Part shown: in pieces, positions 49,588 through 59,226 of the stretch | How the letters are laid out: each line of letters starts with the position of its first letter | How positions within the stretch are numbered: the first letter of the stretch is position 1 | Assembly (NCBI GenBank): GCA_947464275.1 | Contig: CANHVU010000007.1 | Location: 62,001 to 126,000 of the forward strand | From: Bacteroidota bacterium | GTDB taxonomy: Bacteria > Bacteroidota > Bacteroidia > UKL13-3 | Direction: 5' to 3' | Length of the DNA: 64,000 nt | Notes under the pieces: generated by a model | What the model saw: the letters and a program-made list of their open reading frames with translations, nothing else | The model's database searches: none | Told to the model about the DNA's origin: nothing | Translations under genes and position numbers: made by a program

Positions 49588-49785
49588 TGAAAAGACTGGT
49601 GTTTCGAGTGATATTAACAATCCTGTGATTAACTTTTTGAAACATACTTAACCCATGCAATGTATTATTGTAGGAAGCTAAATATTCAAAATAAATTTAA
49701 ATCACATTTAATGAAATGTATTTATGATTTGAATGCTAAACTTACTTTAATTTATTAACGGTTAATTTTAGAAAAAAAACAAAAA

Positions 49786-50757
49786 ATGCAAAATCAAGAC
49801 GAGTTATTATTGAGGGAAAACAAAGACAGATTTGTTATTCTACCCATTAATTATCCAAAAGTATGGGAAATGTATAAAAAACATGAAGCTAGCTTTTGGA
49901 CTGCTGAGGAAATTGATTTGAGTGATGATTTAAAAGATTGGGCAAAATTAAATGATGGAGAACGTCATTTTATTTCTCATATTTTGGCATTTTTTGCAGC
50001 AAGTGATGGTATAGTTAATGAAAATTTGGCTGTTAACTTCATGAGCGAGGTTCAATTGCCTGAGGCTAGATGTTACTATGGTTTCCAAATTATGATGGAA
50101 AATATCCATAGTGAAACATATGCACTGTTGATTGATACATATATCAAAGATCCAAAAGAAAAAGACAGGTTATTTCATGCCATTGATACAGTTCCAGCTG
50201 TAAAAAAGAAGGCAGAGTGGGCTTTGCGTTGGATTAGTAATGGAACTTTTGCTCAACGTTTGGTGGCCTTTGCAGCAGTTGAGGGTATATTTTTTAGTGG
50301 TAGTTTTTGTTCTATATTTTGGATGAAAAAGCGTGGTTTAATGCCAGGTTTAACATTTAGTAATGAACTAATTAGCCGAGATGAAGGAATGCATTGTGAG
50401 TTTGCTTGTTTAATGTATAGCATGTTAAGCAATAAATTAAGCCAAGAGGAAGTGCATACCATTATTAGAGATGCAGTAGCAATTGAAAAAGAATTTGTTT
50501 CTGAAGCATTACCTGTTGATTTGATAGGAATGAATGCTAAGCTAATGCAACAGTATATTGAATTTGTGGCCGATAGATGGTTAGCAGAATTAGGATATGC
50601 AAAATTATACAACGCTACAAATCCATTTGATTTTATGGAAATGATATCGTTACAAGGTAAAACTAACTTTTTTGAAAAAAGAGTTGGTGATTACCAAAAA
50701 GCAGGTGTAATGGGCGGAAAAGAAGGTCATGCATTTTCACTAGAAGAGGACTTTTAA
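49786..50757 (+). CDS. nrdB: Ribonucleoside-diphosphate reductase, beta subunit (class Ia)
   Basis: 323 residues. Makes the tyrosyl radical used by NrdA to reduce ribonucleotides. Di-iron ligands are visible: Asp74 ([12 protein letters not shown]), Glu105 and His108 (ENIHSE), Glu166 (EGIFF), Glu200 and His203 ([10 protein letters not shown]), and the radical Tyr112 (SETYALLID). The wording is close to eukaryote-like class Ia R2. The C terminus ends SLEEDF, the acidic peptide that docks to NrdA. nrdA follows only after an inserted S23-type cassette (50772-51239); without it the two genes would be about 25 bp apart. Confidence 0.97.
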
Positions 50758-50771
50758 AGATTGTTGAACTG

Positions 50772-50791
50772 TGATTTAGGATTTTTGATTT
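50772..50791 (+). repeat. Left inverted-repeat arm of the IVS-like cassette
   Basis: TGATTTAGGATTTTTGATTT, pairs over all 20 bases with 51220-51239. Its last bases overlap the TTG start codon of the S23 gene (50790-50792), so folding would hide the start. Confidence 0.9.
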
Positions 50792-51155
50792 GGAAATTAG
50801 TAATAAAATAGCCTTACAATCAAGAACTAAATTGTTCAATATAGCTGTGATTAGGGCATGTGATGGTTTGCCAAAAACCGCTGCAGGCTTTGAATTGGCA
50901 AAACAATTAATAAGAGCAACTGGTTCGGTAGGTGCAAACTACAGAGCTAGTTCAAGGGCAAAATCTACAGCAGATTTTATTTATAAATTAGAAATTGTAA
51001 TTGAAGAAGCTGATGAGTCTATGTATTGGTTAGAAATTTTGGAAGAGTTAGAGCTTTTAGATAAAGCTATTACTCAACCTTTGATAAAAGAAGCGAATGA
51101 ACTGGTAAGCATTTTTGTAGCTTCGGTTAAAACAGTAAAACAAAAGAAACAATGA
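50790..51155 (+). CDS. S23/IVS-type four-helix-bundle protein
   Basis: 121 residues. The sequence RTKLFNIAVIRACDGLPKTAAGFELA, GSVGANYRASSRAKSTADFIYKLEIVIEEADES and YWLEILEELELL matches the four-helix-bundle proteins (S23/IVP, related to the Avd protein of diversity-generating retroelements), small basic RNA- or protein-binding helical bundles. No ATG fits before the conserved core; the only candidate is the TTG at 50790-50792 because an in-frame stop (TGA at 50772) lies just upstream. It is between nrdB and nrdA in the same direction and is bounded by the 20-bp inverted repeat. Function is unknown; nucleic-acid binding is inferred from the family. Confidence 0.85.
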   Translation: MEISNKIALQSRTKLFNIAVIRACDGLPKTAAGFELAKQLIRATGSVGANYRASSRAKSTADFIYKLEIVIEEADESMYWLEILEELELLDKAITQPLIKEANELVSIFVASVKTVKQKKQ

Positions 51156-51219
51156 TTTTTGATCTGAGATTTCTGTATTGATGTTCATGTAAAATGTTCA
51201 AATCATAACTAAAAATCCT

Positions 51220-51239
51220 AAATCAAAAATCCTAAATCA
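51220..51239 (+). repeat. Right inverted-repeat arm of the IVS-like cassette
   Basis: AAATCAAAAATCCTAAATCA, exact reverse complement of 50772-50791. The arm ends 11 bp before the nrdA ATG, so a folded stem would also touch the region where nrdA translation starts. Confidence 0.9.
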
Positions 51240-51250
51240 TAATTATTAAG

Positions 51251-53677
51251 ATGTTTGTAATTAAAAGAAACGGCAAAAAAGAAAGCGTTAAATTTGACAA
51301 AGTAACGGCAAGAATTGAAAAGCTTAGTTACAGTTTAAGTCCATTAATTGACCCTATTGATGTGGCTAAAAAAGTGGTTCAAGGAATTTATGATGGAGTT
51401 CCTACTACAGAGTTAGATAATTTAGCTGCAGAAACTGCTGCTTCACTTACTACCAAGCATCCCGATTATGCATTATTAGCAAGTAGAATTGCGGTAAGTA
51501 ATTTACACAAAAATACCATTAAGTCGTTTTCAGAAACAATGGAAAAGCTTTACAACTACACCGATAAAGGTACTGGAAAAAGAACACCATTAATAGCTGA
51601 AGATGTATATGAAATTATTCAAAAGAATGCAGAATTATTAGATAGCTCTATTATTTATGATAGAGATTTTGCATTTGATTATTTTGGATTCAAAACAATT
51701 GAAAAATCATACTTATTCCGTGTAGATGGAAAAGTGGCCGAACGACCACAACACATGTACATGCGTGTAGCCCTTGGAATTCACAAGGAGGATATTGATA
51801 GTGTGATTGCCACTTATAATTTAATGAGTGAGCGTTGGTTTACACATGCCACACCTACATTATTTAATGCGGGTACTCCAAAACCGCAAATGAGTAGTTG
51901 TTTTCTTTTAACCATGAAAGAAGATAGTATTGATGGTATTTATGATACTTTAAAACAAACTGCCAAAATTTCGCAAAGTGCTGGTGGAATTGGATTAGCA
52001 ATACATAACATTAGAGCTACAGGTAGTTATATTGGTGGAACTAATGGAACAAGCAATGGTATTGTTCCAATGTTGCGTGTATTTAACGATACTGCTCGCT
52101 ATGTAGATCAAGGTGGAGGGAAACGTAAAGGTGCTTTTGCAATTTACCTAGAACCCTGGCATGCCGATGTTTTTGCATTTTTGGATTTACGTAAAAACCA
52201 TGGTAAAGAAGAAATGCGTGCACGTGATTTATTCTATGCACTTTGGATATGCGATTTATTTATGAAACGTGTAGAAGAAAATGGCGATTGGAGTCTTTTC
52301 TGTCCGAATGAAGCACCAGGCTTAAGCGAGTGTTGGGGAGATGAGTTTGAAGCACTTTATACTAGTTATGAAGCACAAGGTAAAGCACGTCAAACTATTA
52401 AGGCGCAAGATTTATGGTTTGCAATTATGGAATCACAAATTGAAACCGGTACGCCATATATGCTTTACAAAGATGCTGCAAACCGTAAAAGCAATCAACA
52501 AAACTTAGGTACAATAAAAAGCAGTAACTTATGTACCGAAATTATGGAATACACAAGTCCTGATGAAGTAGCAGTTTGTAATTTAGCTTCACTGGCTTTA
52601 CCTCGTTTTGTTATTGATGGCAAATTTGACCATAACAAATTATATGAAGTAACTTACCAAGCTACTTTAAACCTAAATAAAATTATTGATTATAATTACT
52701 ATCCAGTTGAAGAGGCAAGAAACTCTAACATGCGTCATCGCCCAATTGGATTAGGAGTTCAAGGATTAGCAGATGTGTTTATTTTGTTGCGCATGCCATT
52801 CGAAAGTGATTCGGCAAAGCAGTTAAATAAAAATATTTTTGAAACAATATATTTTGCTTCTTTAACAGCAAGTAAAGACTTAGCTAAAAAAGAAGGTGCT
52901 TACCAAACATTTAAAGGTTCACCGCTTTCAAAAGGAAAATTCCAATTTGACTTATGGGATATAAATGCTACTGAAAACTGGAATTGGGAAGCATTGAGAG
53001 CTGAAGTAATAGAACATGGTGTTAGAAATTCATTATTAGTAGCACCAATGCCAACTGCTTCTACTTCTCAAATTTTAGGAAATAATGAGTGTTTTGAACC
53101 ATACACTTCAAATATTTATACTCGTAGGGTTTTAAGTGGCGAATTTGTAGTGGTTAACAAGCATTTATTAAAAGATTTAGTTCAATTAGGACTTTGGACT
53201 AATGATATGAAAAATAAAATAATTGCTGCAAATGGTTCAGTTCAAAATATTGCTGAAATACCAGCAAATATTAAAGAACTATACAAAACAGTTTGGGAAA
53301 TTAAACAACGTAATTTAATTGATATGGCAGCCGATAGGGGAGCTTATATTTGCCAATCGCAGTCGTTGAATTTATTTGTAGATAGCCCTAGCAGTTCTAA
53401 ACTTACTTCAATGCACTTTTATGCATGGAAAAAAGGTTTGAAAACTGGTATGTATTACTTACGCTCCCAAGCAGCTACACAAGCAGTTCAATTTACCATT
53501 GAAAAACAAGGTAATAACGATATGCAACCTGTAGTTCCGGTTATTGAAGTAGCTCCTACTTTAAATGCCGTAACTAATTCAACCATTCCAGCTGGAAATA
53601 ACATAGATGATATTACAACCGATTTCACAGGTCAAGTTTGTACCATGGAAGAAGGTTGTGTAACTTGCAGTAGCTAA
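51251..53677 (+). CDS. nrdA: Ribonucleoside-diphosphate reductase, alpha subunit (class Ia)
   Basis: 808 residues. N-terminal ATP-cone ([18 protein letters not shown], about 1-90) for allosteric control by dATP/ATP. Catalytic barrel with Cys217 (MSSCFLL) and Cys443 (AVCNLASL) as the redox pair, and Asn426, Cys428 and Glu430 in SNLCTEI as the active-site triad. The C terminus [12 protein letters not shown] carries cysteines that shuttle electrons from thioredoxin or glutaredoxin. It reduces NDPs to dNDPs using the NrdB radical. Preceded by the S23 cassette, whose right arm ends 11 bases before the ATG, and followed by its own terminator. Confidence 0.97.
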
Positions 53678-53869: not shown

Positions 53870-54523
53870 ATGAAATTTTATAATTTATTAATTAAATACC
53901 GTTTTTGGGCTGGAATAGCCTCGTTGATTATAGGTCTTTTACTTCAGTTTGCTGGCTTAGGCGATATTTGGGCCGCAATTATATTTTATACCTTAGCTGT
54001 GATAGCAATTTTTACGCATTTTTTTATTGGTCCCTTGCGTTTAATTCAAGAGCCAATGGAAAATGGTGATGTAGAGGCTGTTGAACGTATTTTAAATTCT
54101 ATATGGTTTCCTAATTTATTGTTCAAACCTATTCGTAGTTCGTATTACACCCTAAGAGGTAATTTGGCTATGGCAAATAAAGATTTTGATTCAGCCGAAA
54201 AACTATTGAAAAAAAGTGCTTCCATTGGCAGTACCTTAGCCGAAAATAAAGGCTCAACCGATGTGCAATTAGGTATGATGGCTTTACAAAAAGGTAGCTA
54301 CAAGGAAGGTGAAAAATACATGAGAGAAGCTTTAAAAGGTTCGTTAGACAACGAAAGTCAAGCTATGGCTTTATTGGGTATGGTTCAAATTTACATGAAC
54401 AAACGCGATATCAGAGCTTCGAAAGATTTTTTAAGAAGAGCTAAAAATTGCAAAGCTAAAAACGAACAGGTAGTTGCTCAAATTAAAGATTTAGACAAAC
54501 ACCTTGCCCGCGTTCCGGGATAA
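53870..54523 (+). CDS. Membrane-anchored TPR-like protein
   Basis: 217 residues from the ATG at 53870. Two membrane helices near 10-30 and 35-57 (FWAGIASLIIGLLLQFAGLGDI, IIFYTLAVIAIFTHFF), then helical repeats of TPR type: SSYYTLRGNLAMANKDFDSAEKLLKKSA, QLGMMALQKGSYKEGEKYMREAL, AMALLGMVQIYMNKRDIRASKDFLRRAK. Such proteins hold cytoplasmic assemblies at the inner membrane. It is separated from nrdA by its own promoter. Partner unknown. Confidence 0.8.
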   Translation: MKFYNLLIKYRFWAGIASLIIGLLLQFAGLGDIWAAIIFYTLAVIAIFTHFFIGPLRLIQEPMENGDVEAVERILNSIWFPNLLFKPIRSSYYTLRGNLAMANKDFDSAEKLLKKSASIGSTLAENKGSTDVQLGMMALQKGSYKEGEKYMREALKGSLDNESQAMALLGMVQIYMNKRDIRASKDFLRRAKNCKAKNEQVVAQIKDLDKHLARVPG

Positions 54524-54686
54524 TTATGAATGTTGAATTATAAATTATGAATTATGAATGTTGAATTGATTCAAAATTTTACTTCTAATCATAATCGTTT
54601 CGACTTCGCTCAATGACCGTGTACATTGAGCGAAGTCGAAATGTATTTCCCTTAACTAAAAGATATTGAATTATGAATGTTGAATT
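54523..54686. repeat. Repeat cluster: three copies of a 17-bp word around an 18-bp perfect stem
   Basis: ATTATGAATGTTGAATT occurs exactly at 54523-54539, 54551-54567 and 54670-54686. Between copies two and three is the inverted repeat TTTCGACTTCGCTCAATG (54598-54615) and CATTGAGCGAAGTCGAAA (54624-54641), perfect over 18 bases with an eight-base loop. The rest of the gap up to 54741 holds AT-rich text and no gene. Confidence 0.75.
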
Positions 54687-57179: not shown

Positions 57180-57258
57180 CTTATTGGTTTGAGTACTTCT
57201 TTAAATTGTGGTTGTATTTCTAAAAGCTATCAACTGACAACTATCAACCATCAACTAA

Positions 57259-59226
57259 CTAATCTCTTCTACGTCTTCTTTCGCCACTTGGTCTATCACC
57301 AGCAGGTTTATCGCCACCATAGCTTCTGTTACGTCCGCCATCTCTGGTTCCGTAACCGCTTCTGTCGCTGGTTGAGCTACTTCTATCACTACCAGCATCT
57401 CTGCCATAGCTACTTCTGTCGCTTCTTTCAGTTCTTGGTGCTCTTTCTCTATCTCCGCCTCTTTCTCTATCACCTCCGCTGCTACGTCTTCTATCGCCTC
57501 CGCCATAGCTTGAGCTTCCGCCTTCGCTTCTACGGCTGCTGTATCCTCCGCCACCACTTCTTCCGCCTCTATCGCCACCGCGGCCACCTCTTCCTTCGCG
57601 CGAACCACCTGGTTTTTCACCACTTAATTCTGCTCTTACAGGTCTGCCTTCGTAAGTATTGCCATTTAAAGCAGTAATTACTTTTTCGGCTAATTCTTCT
57701 TTTACATCTACAAAGCTAAATACACCACTTACATCTACATGTAATTCTTTCCAATCTAAGCTGCTTTCTTGAGCAACCCAATCTTTAAAGCTGCGGATAT
57801 CAAAGCCGTCTTTTTTACCTACACTTACAAAAATTCTTTGTCCGCGTACATTTCCACCACGTTCGCCTCTTTCACCATCTCTGGTTCTATCGCCCGAAGT
57901 AGTATTTAAATCAGGAGCGTTTAAGTACTCAGCACTAAATCTGCGTAACTCTAATGAAAGGAATTTTTGAACCAATTCTTCCGAAGGTAAAGTTAATAAC
58001 GGGCGTAAGCTAGTCATTACTTTATCATCAAAAATACTTTCTTCAATTTCGGTATTTACAATAGTATCAATAAAAGCTACTAATTTTTTATCGCGCACTT
58101 CTTCGGCACTTGGAATTAGTATTTTATCAAATTTTACATTACTCAATCTTTCAATATCGCGTAATCTTCCATTTTCGCGCATGTTTAATAAAGTAAACGA
58201 TACACCTAATTTTCCAGCTCTACCTGTTCTACCACTTCTGTGTGTGTAGTTTTCAATATCATCTGGCAAACTAAAATGGATTACGTGACTAATGCCTGAA
58301 ACATCAATACCACGTGCAGCCACATCGGTTGCTAATAATATCTTGATGGCATGATGACGGAAACGGTTCATTACCTTTTCGCGTTGTCCTTGGCTTAAAT
58401 CGCCATGTAAACAATCGGCATTGTAACCATCTTTAATTAATTTATCGCTAATATCTTGTGTTTCGTGTTTGGTAGTACAAAATATAATGGCGTAAATATC
58501 ATCGCTGTTAAAATCAACAAAACGTTTTAAGGCAGCATATTTATCGCGGGCGTGTACTACAGCATATTGATGTGTAATGTTTACGTTACCCGAGTTAGAT
58601 TTACCAACTGTAATTTCAAAAGGATCGTTCATGTAACGGTTTGCAATGTTTCTAATGCTTTTTGGCATAGTTGCACTGAATAAACAAACGCGTTTTTCTT
58701 TAGGAGTTTCTGCTAAAATGTATTCTACATCTTCTTCAAAACCCATGTTTAGCATTTCATCTGCTTCGTCTAACACTACATATTTTACTGTAGAAATGTT
58801 AAGCGCTCTGCGGTTCATTAAATCCATTAAACGACCTGGAGTAGCTACAATAATGTGTGCACCACGTTTAATATCAGAAATTTGACGTTCAATGCTACTT
58901 CCACCGTACACTGCTACGATGTTAATACCAGATTTGTTTTTGCTATAGTTACCTAAATCTTTGCTAATTTGCATGCAAAGCTCACGTGTAGGACAAATAA
59001 CTAAAGCTTGAATAGTTCTGTTAGAAGGTTCAACAAGTTGAATAATTGGCAGGCCAAATGCTGCTGTTTTACCGGTTCCCGTCTGGGCTAATCCCAAAAT
59101 ATCTTGGCCTGTTTCTAAAAACACAGGAATAGACTGTTCCTGTATAGGCGTTGGAGTCTCAAACCCCATCTCTTGAATCGCATTCAAGATGGACGTTTCT
59201 ACGCCCAAATCACTAAAATTTTTCAA
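57259..59226 (-). CDS. DEAD-box RNA helicase with DbpA RNA-binding domain and RGG/SR-rich tail
   Basis: 655 residues. Helicase core of about 1-370: Q motif MGFETPTPIQEQSIP near 20, AQTGTGKT, PTRELC, DEADEML, SAT, ARGIDVSG and HRSGRTGRAG. About 478-555 is a DbpA-type RNA-binding domain (RIFVSVGKKDGFDIRSF...VRAELSG). The last 100 residues are Gly/Arg/Ser-rich (GGRGGDRGGRSGGGG, many RSS and GG steps). The start is TTG at 59224-59226: an in-frame stop is 9 bases upstream and no ATG precedes the Q motif. A TATATTTG element lies 24-31 bases before it. Resembles DeaD/CsdA-type ribosome-assembly helicases. The coding DNA of the tail also gives a long opposite-strand ORF, which is only its shadow. Confidence 0.93.
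   Translation of the reverse strand: MKNFSDLGVETSILNAIQEMGFETPTPIQEQSIPVFLETGQDILGLAQTGTGKTAAFGLPIIQLVEPSNRTIQALVICPTRELCMQISKDLGNYSKNKSGINIVAVYGGSSIERQISDIKRGAHIIVATPGRLMDLMNRRALNISTVKYVVLDEADEMLNMGFEEDVEYILAETPKEKRVCLFSATMPKSIRNIANRYMNDPFEITVGKSNSGNVNITHQYAVVHARDKYAALKRFVDFNSDDIYAIIFCTTKHETQDISDKLIKDGYNADCLHGDLSQGQREKVMNRFRHHAIKILLATDVAARGIDVSGISHVIHFSLPDDIENYTHRSGRTGRAGKLGVSFTLLNMRENGRLRDIERLSNVKFDKILIPSAEEVRDKKLVAFIDTIVNTEIEESIFDDKVMTSLRPLLTLPSEELVQKFLSLELRRFSAEYLNAPDLNTTSGDRTRDGERGERGGNVRGQRIFVSVGKKDGFDIRSFKDWVAQESSLDWKELHVDVSGVFSFVDVKEELAEKVITALNGNTYEGRPVRAELSGEKPGGSREGRGGRGGDRGGRSGGGGYSSRRSEGGSSSYGGGDRRRSSGGDRERGGDRERAPRTERSDRSSYGRDAGSDRSSSTSDRSGYGTRDGGRNRSYGGDKPAGDRPSGERRRRRD

Follow-up and report, generated by a model that had tools for sequence, protein, structure and literature searches.

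An S23 gene between nrdB and nrdA lies in a cassette with inverted heptamer arrays, which its protein probably recognises

The locus raises the question of how an S23 gene enclosed by inverted repeats comes to lie within a ribonucleotide reductase operon, and what keeps it there. In the window, i.e., the whole 64,000-nucleotide stretch of DNA that was analysed, nrdB, the S23 gene, and nrdA are all co-directional (Table 1). The perfect 20-bp inverted repeat that the initial annotation had reported around the S23 gene is exact, its arms (50772–50791 and 51220–51239) being exact reverse complements, and the locus does have the layout of an intervening sequence (IVS) in an mRNA operon, with an S23 gene and terminal inverted repeats between nrdB and nrdA. 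However, the repeat is not a unique feature standing on its own: one arm falls inside the left heptamer array, and the other falls inside the right array. The 19-bp core of the arm has two exact matches in the window and three matches with up to three mismatches; in 100 shuffles with three mismatches allowed, the mean number of matches was 0.20 and the maximum was 2. The exact part of the right array (51211–51238, minus strand) reads GATTTAG, GATTTTT, GATTTAG, and GATTTTT and is followed on both sides by degenerate units; the array stops 5 nt ahead of the nrdA ATG. The inverted repeat of the cassette is a pair of inverted heptamer arrays with the unit GATTTNN, and the perfect 20 bp are the best-matching stretch of this pair.

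Table 1. Features of the nrdB–S23–nrdA locus in window coordinates.
Feature	Coordinates	Strand	Evidence
nrdB, class I ribonucleotide reductase small chain, upstream host gene	49786..50757	+	PF00268 1.1e-119
Left array, five heptamers GATTGTT GAACTGT GATTTAG GATTTTT GATTTGG	50759..50793	+	Sequence, lag-7 statistics
S23 / four-helix-bundle gene	50790..51155	+	PF05635 4.2e-16, TIGR02436 1.4e-23
Right array, inverted relative to the left; exact units flanked by degenerate ones	51198..51245	-	Sequence
Predicted RNA hairpin closing the cassette, 24 bp	50770..51241	+	MFE and centroid structures
nrdA, ribonucleotide reductase large chain, downstream host gene	51251..53677	+	PF02867 2e-221

The S23 reading frame scores above the curated cut-offs of both PF05635 (59.5 bits vs. 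33.8) and TIGR02436 (83.1 vs. 24) and matches PDB 2rld, its nearest solved relative, with a value of 4.4e-15; the 2rld structure has five chains. The sole canonical start of the gene is a TTG at 50790, within the left array, and the frame is open from about 50775; in two relatives (L057 and L060), an ATG start lies close by. It is the only gene within the nrd cassette, which encodes no transposase or recombinase, and a mobilising enzyme is presumed. The ends of the cassette abut the stop and start codons, the corresponding empty sites vary in length, and no target-site duplication is definable. The genome contains ten PF05635 genes, with no near-identical cassettes at separate sites. Of the further copies that the initial annotation had proposed to look for, a second 468-bp unit is absent from this genome, but closely related S23 genes with the GATTTNN unit do occur at other sites (L058, hpd–haao). 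No transcription terminator was found at the cassette, and the arms were rejected as such a terminator. An Rfam search of 49700–51500 returned no family at gathering level, no rRNA, and no group I or group II intron match; a group I or group II intron was rejected on that result.

The architecture is not peculiar to nrd: in several bacterial phyla, S23 genes typically lie between inverted heptamer arrays, which usually contain no more than five units. S23 genes were found in 54 of 58 related genomes. For 127 S23 genes from these genomes and further contigs, both flanks show autocorrelation at lags of 7, 14, 21, and 28 only. The lag-7 autocorrelation is 0.083, compared with −0.012 in 250 control stretches, and a lag-7 identity of at least 60% is reached by about half of the S23 flanks but by none of the 250 controls. 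Arms were matched in 124 S23 cassettes from 75 sites. The left arm scores 18.5 against the inverted right arm of its own cassette and 9.8 against those of other cassettes (n = 124), or 17.6 and 9.4, respectively, with one cassette per site, and the own partner ranks in the top 5% for 97 of the 124 cassettes. The unit itself varies among cassettes (GATTTNN, CAGTANN, ACCGNTN, CAATAAG, TTAGGNN, and others). In 40 of 70 two-array cassettes, the consensus units of the two arms agree at 6 or 7 of 7 positions, whereas such agreement between different cassettes is seen in 2.7%. Well-formed arms have about five conserved columns and two variable ones, which are usually adjacent. In a held-out set of 50 loci, mostly from another phylum, the lag-7 periodicity was replicated (0.101/0.101), the own partner was the best arm in 26 of 48 cases, and the orientation was sense in 35 of 42; this set is not wholly independent, since a few genomes were already represented in the first one. 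The inverted-array arms seen elsewhere recur at most of 13 plasmid loci (cyanobacteria, Chloroflexota, Spirochaetota, and Bacteroidota), with GATTTNN arms in Emticicia.

Heptamer arrays without an S23 gene are also present in the window genome (G000), namely at the mraY–murD (C7:49115), folP–cdaA (C8:84710), and groES–groEL (C11:25030) junctions. The mraY–murD array nearly repeats the left arm at nrd and is found in most, but not all, congeners. Thus, arrays are not exclusive to S23 genes, and those lacking the gene in this genome and its congeners may be remnants or S23-less derivatives. Within the window, a GAATTAT-type array near 54524 (54505–54575) and a CAACTAT-type array near 57220 (57216–57262) likewise lack an S23 gene.

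The number of units per arm was counted with the consensus unit taken from the opposite arm; hence, nothing was seeded. At a threshold of 5/7, runs of four, five, six, and seven units were obtained for 36, 49, 8, and 3 arms, respectively, i.e., with a peak at five and a fall at six, while runs in shuffled arms never exceeded three. The peak at five is kept at a threshold of 4/7 and absent at the strict 6/7, and 130 of 272 arms (roughly 40–50%) have two units or fewer in this opposite-arm test. The natural reading of the peak would be one heptamer per subunit of an S23 pentamer. The relation between unit and protein was assessed over 133 sites, in 8671 pairs without shared flanks. Arm similarity stays level at 9.1–9.2 for S23 identities of 20–50% and takes values of 10.3, 10.8, 14.1, and 16.4 at identities of 50–55, 55–60, 60–70, and 70–95%, respectively; the controls gave 8.9–9.5 for arms read backwards and 8.7–10.5 for the opposite strand. 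At unrelated sites, therefore, the heptamer unit follows the similarity of the S23 proteins. In three MAGs named Verrucomicrobia, Bipolaricaulota, and Eisenbacteria, unrelated S23 sites have arms that are 84–96% identical and genes that are 70–77% identical (DNA), although a binning error is possible for them.

Both neighbours are co-directional with the S23 gene at 66 of 74 sites and both are antisense at two, a bias implying that the cassette relies on read-through transcription. The named S23 junctions in this genome are nrdB–nrdA, the split metH halves, serC–serA, fcl–gmd, and paaA–paaB. The metH gene is split near residue 340 of 1234, with the S23 cassette between the parts, so that a split methionine synthase forms a protein-level parallel to an rRNA split by an IVS. 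The metH junction recurs in the genus (L032 and L016), where different species hold unrelated S23 cassettes. Among the 60 fetched loci that were scanned, no S23 gene is lodged in rRNA and two adjoin tRNA-Sec; the comparison with rRNA therefore rests on the published account. In two MAGs named Acidobacteria (L068 and L071), an S23 gene with a GATTTNN left array lies directly behind a selenocysteine tRNA gene. On plasmids of Planktothrix, Gloeocapsa, Dolichospermum, and Chlorohelix (L263–L269), S23 recurs between helicase or DUF1156 genes and methylase or Swt1-HEPN genes, in what are probably defence operons. In Pseudanabaena, S23 is located between csx2 and cas1.

The dN/dS values of S23 are about 0.05–0.2 at nrd and 0.05–0.18 at five other sites. 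These low values indicate that the S23 protein is in use, despite a frameshift in the gene of L060 and an in-frame stop in that of L061. The cassettes are also subject to turnover. The S23 genes of different species are only 34% identical at the junction of the metH halves (arm score, 9.5) and 33% identical at fcl–gmd (arm score, 9.8); the presence of different S23 genes with unrelated arms at one junction indicates that gene and arms are replaced together. In one further genome (G274), S23 cassettes with GAGGACT-type arms, the gene carrying a stop, are located inside two CRISPR arrays (L261 and L262; G274:C1:3064700–3068000 and 3083400–3088000). There, the cassette is in spacer position (CRISPR repeat, 37 bp; spacers, 36–44 bp) and has been amplified in tandem, with full (480 bp) and partial (215 bp) copies. 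The five copies in these arrays were rejected as separate insertions, as they appear to derive from one or two insertions by recombination.

The nrd junction is occupied in six of ten members of the genus (G000, G003, G004, G005, G006, and G009), and further occupied lineages are represented by L059, L061, and L062; L055, L056, L057, and L060 appear conspecific with G003, G004, G005, and G009. Empty nrdB–nrdA junctions, which the initial annotation had proposed to seek in relatives, were found in four congeners (G001, G002, G007, and G008; 109–149 bp), in one sister genus (G029), where the junction is a bare 27 bp, and in 18 more distant genomes, where no S23 gene is present at this position. 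Three of the four empty congeners retain an AATTCAT array just ahead of nrdA, which is likely a remnant. The NrdB/A tree forces at least two changes, since G029 is placed beside the occupied G006 and the four empty congeners beside the occupied G005, and the S23 tree can be reconciled with inheritance followed by loss. Most S23 cassettes in the genus occupy shared sites. Judging from these trees, the nrd cassette seems to have been mainly inherited and lost rather than freshly inserted. It predates the radiation of the genus and was lost at least twice; a single lateral exchange is probable. The S23 tree gives no resolution on L058 as its source. The evidence for exchange comes from one pair: between G003 and G004, 15 of 401 sites are different in the cassette and 220 of 1928 in nrdB/nrdA, while the corresponding values for G000 and G004 are 26 of 401 and 99 of 1928. 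Because the ratio of S23 to flank dS at other sites scatters widely (median, 0.76), the conflict between G003 and G004 is suggestive only. The notion of a mobile IVS living outside rRNA is thus partly supported by the turnover at other junctions, the CRISPR-array copies, and the empty sites: the architecture and past mobility agree with it, whereas the history at nrd appears to be mainly one of inheritance and loss, not of fresh insertion.

We consider it probable, though by no means certain, that the locus is an S23 cassette, i.e., a one-gene IVS-like element with its own inverted heptamer arrays and a ring protein recognising them. The cassette runs in the sense direction of a transcribed operon junction. 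Known relatives of the S23 protein form pentameric rings, and the protein itself most likely reads its own array, one heptamer per subunit. Such reading would account for array lengths that reach about five units, for the agreement of each unit with its protein, and for the selection acting on S23. With the arrays inverted, the two ends offer identical sites only when the nucleic acid is double-stranded DNA or a paired RNA stem; both arrays would be bound, in DNA and/or in the co-transcribed RNA stem, and this binding would keep, move, and occasionally replace the cassette as a whole. RNA processing or an effect on nrd may accompany it. The lack of a transposase, of a definable target-site duplication, and of near-identical copies at separate sites in the window genome, the predominance of shared sites in the genus, the arms with two units or fewer, the S23-less arrays, and the weak mirroring between arms described below count against this model.

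The initial annotation had likened the arms to a cleavable stem. Indeed, the region 50755–51253, folded as RNA, is predicted to form a 24-bp terminal stem in which 50770–50793 pairs with 51218–51241 (−119.1 kcal/mol; z = −4.36; no shuffle was as good), and the terminal stem is within the MFE structure of eight of ten nrd cassettes. Together with the sense orientation inside operons and the cleavage of Coxiella and other rRNA IVSs by RNase III in the terminal stem (PMC4990558), this stem would suit an RNA-level IVS, in which RNase III cuts a stem formed by the arms, releasing the S23 segment and leaving nrdB and nrdA on separate messages, with the S23 protein being secondary. We regard this as unlikely. 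Two nrd cassettes (L061 and L099) have lost most of the stem, the pairing registers slide, no arm covariation is visible at the nrd site, and own-arm pairs there score no better than between-species arm pairs. Overall, the identity of the unit is kept between arms, but the order of the variable positions is weakly mirrored (mean z, 0.5; p ≤ 0.05 in 16%). Both the weak mirroring and the missing covariation at nrd argue against pairing being the sole constraint, and the comparison of arms appears to show that the heptamer unit is conserved rather than the exact stem pairing. Moreover, excision at the RNA level does not require the strong purifying selection seen on S23, whereas a protein recognising its own array accommodates it.

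The same selection (dN/dS about 0.1) and the long vertical retention would also be consistent with a resident host regulator, an RNA-binding S23 protein that binds the array in its own mRNA and tunes its neighbours, e.g., the NrdA:NrdB ratio. The downstream array would then be the operator, in keeping with its position close to the nrdA start and with the sense orientation. This possibility seems rather remote to us, given the patchy presence and clean loss in close relatives, the occurrence of S23 both in functionally unrelated operons (nrd, metH, serC–serA, fcl–gmd, and paaA–paaB) and in CRISPR arrays, and the joint replacement of gene and arms at one junction; furthermore, the two inverted arrays differ in sequence as single-stranded RNA. 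Least probable is that the arrays arose by polymerase slippage in intergenic DNA, with S23 merely alongside. S23-less arrays do exist in the genus, and heptameric repeats are over-represented in bacteria, for which slippage has been proposed (PMC4692102). Yet, no control stretch reaches the level of about half of the S23 flanks, and slippage leaves unexplained the inverted unit on both sides, the peak at five, and the match of unit and protein across unrelated sites. The cassette whose S23 protein recognises its own arrays remains the preferred explanation.

To our knowledge, the S23 family has remained without a known function ever since it was discovered inside 23S rRNA genes in the 1990s, some 30 years ago. 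The heptamer arrays give S23 a concrete candidate ligand with a predicted stoichiometry of five subunits to five units, and the cassette-specific units provide a built-in specificity control, making the function testable. A wider proposal, to which we attach somewhat less than even confidence, is that S23 proteins outside diversity-generating retroelements are array-specific nucleic-acid-binding rings, the pentamer reading five cassette-specific heptamers on each side, and that a single class of element, settling in transcribed junctions, comprises S23 cassettes, rRNA IVSs, and many of the puzzling heptameric repeats of bacteria. The arrays around S23 also provide a possible origin for the heptameric intergenic repeats that other authors could not explain, and they point to rRNA IVSs as one special form of a broader class usually found between protein-coding genes.

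A search of the open-licence literature found no paper that connects heptamer arrays with S23 genes, apart from the case of the Coxiella 23S IVS. Among related systems, Avd of diversity-generating retroelements has the S23-family fold, is a pentamer, and works with a reverse transcriptase. In contrast, there is no reverse transcriptase, template, or variable repeat beside the nrd cassette, whose neighbours are nrdB and nrdA, and the cassette differs from DNA transposons and insertion sequences in lacking a transposase or recombinase. S23 (23S_rRNA_IVP) genes have been described in cas loci, e.g., between cmr3 and cmr2, and were treated as an assorted CRISPR-associated function (PMC3936711). 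They resemble the present gene in being inserted between operon genes, although heptamer arrays such as those described here are not mentioned in the excerpted text of that paper. As for the repeats, the GGGAATC arrays of Xanthomonas number about 186, most often have four units, form about 70 inverted pairs per genome, and were left unexplained (PMC4692102), and TAACTGA arrays of Beggiatoaceae and Bacteroidetes lie mostly just ahead of start codons (PMC4679880). Compared by these published descriptions, they too are intergenic heptamer arrays, but they are not tied to S23 in the excerpted parts of the two papers, whereas the arrays described here bracket S23 and follow its sequence.

The closest resemblance is to the 23S rRNA IVSs with an S23p ORF, which are known from Leptospira, Coxiella, Xanthomonas, and Brucella (as cited in PMC4990558); the Xanthomonas S23p is reported to be a homopentamer (PMC4990558, PMC3936711), and S23 genes are also present in rRNA insertions of CPR (PMC11270868). 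Shared features are a sense S23 gene, stem-forming terminal inverted repeats, a length of about 430–480 bp, and a sporadic distribution among close relatives, as in the occupied and empty nrd junctions of this genus. In the Coxiella 23S IVS, which is cut by RNase III, tandem GACAGAT heptamers are located just upstream of the S23 ORF (PMC4990558), and the heptamers of the nrd cassette likewise lie next to its S23 ORF. However, the Coxiella S23 has been judged expendable and is probably not expressed (PMC4990558), whereas the S23 gene at nrd is under purifying selection, and its cassette resides in a protein-coding operon rather than in an rRNA gene.
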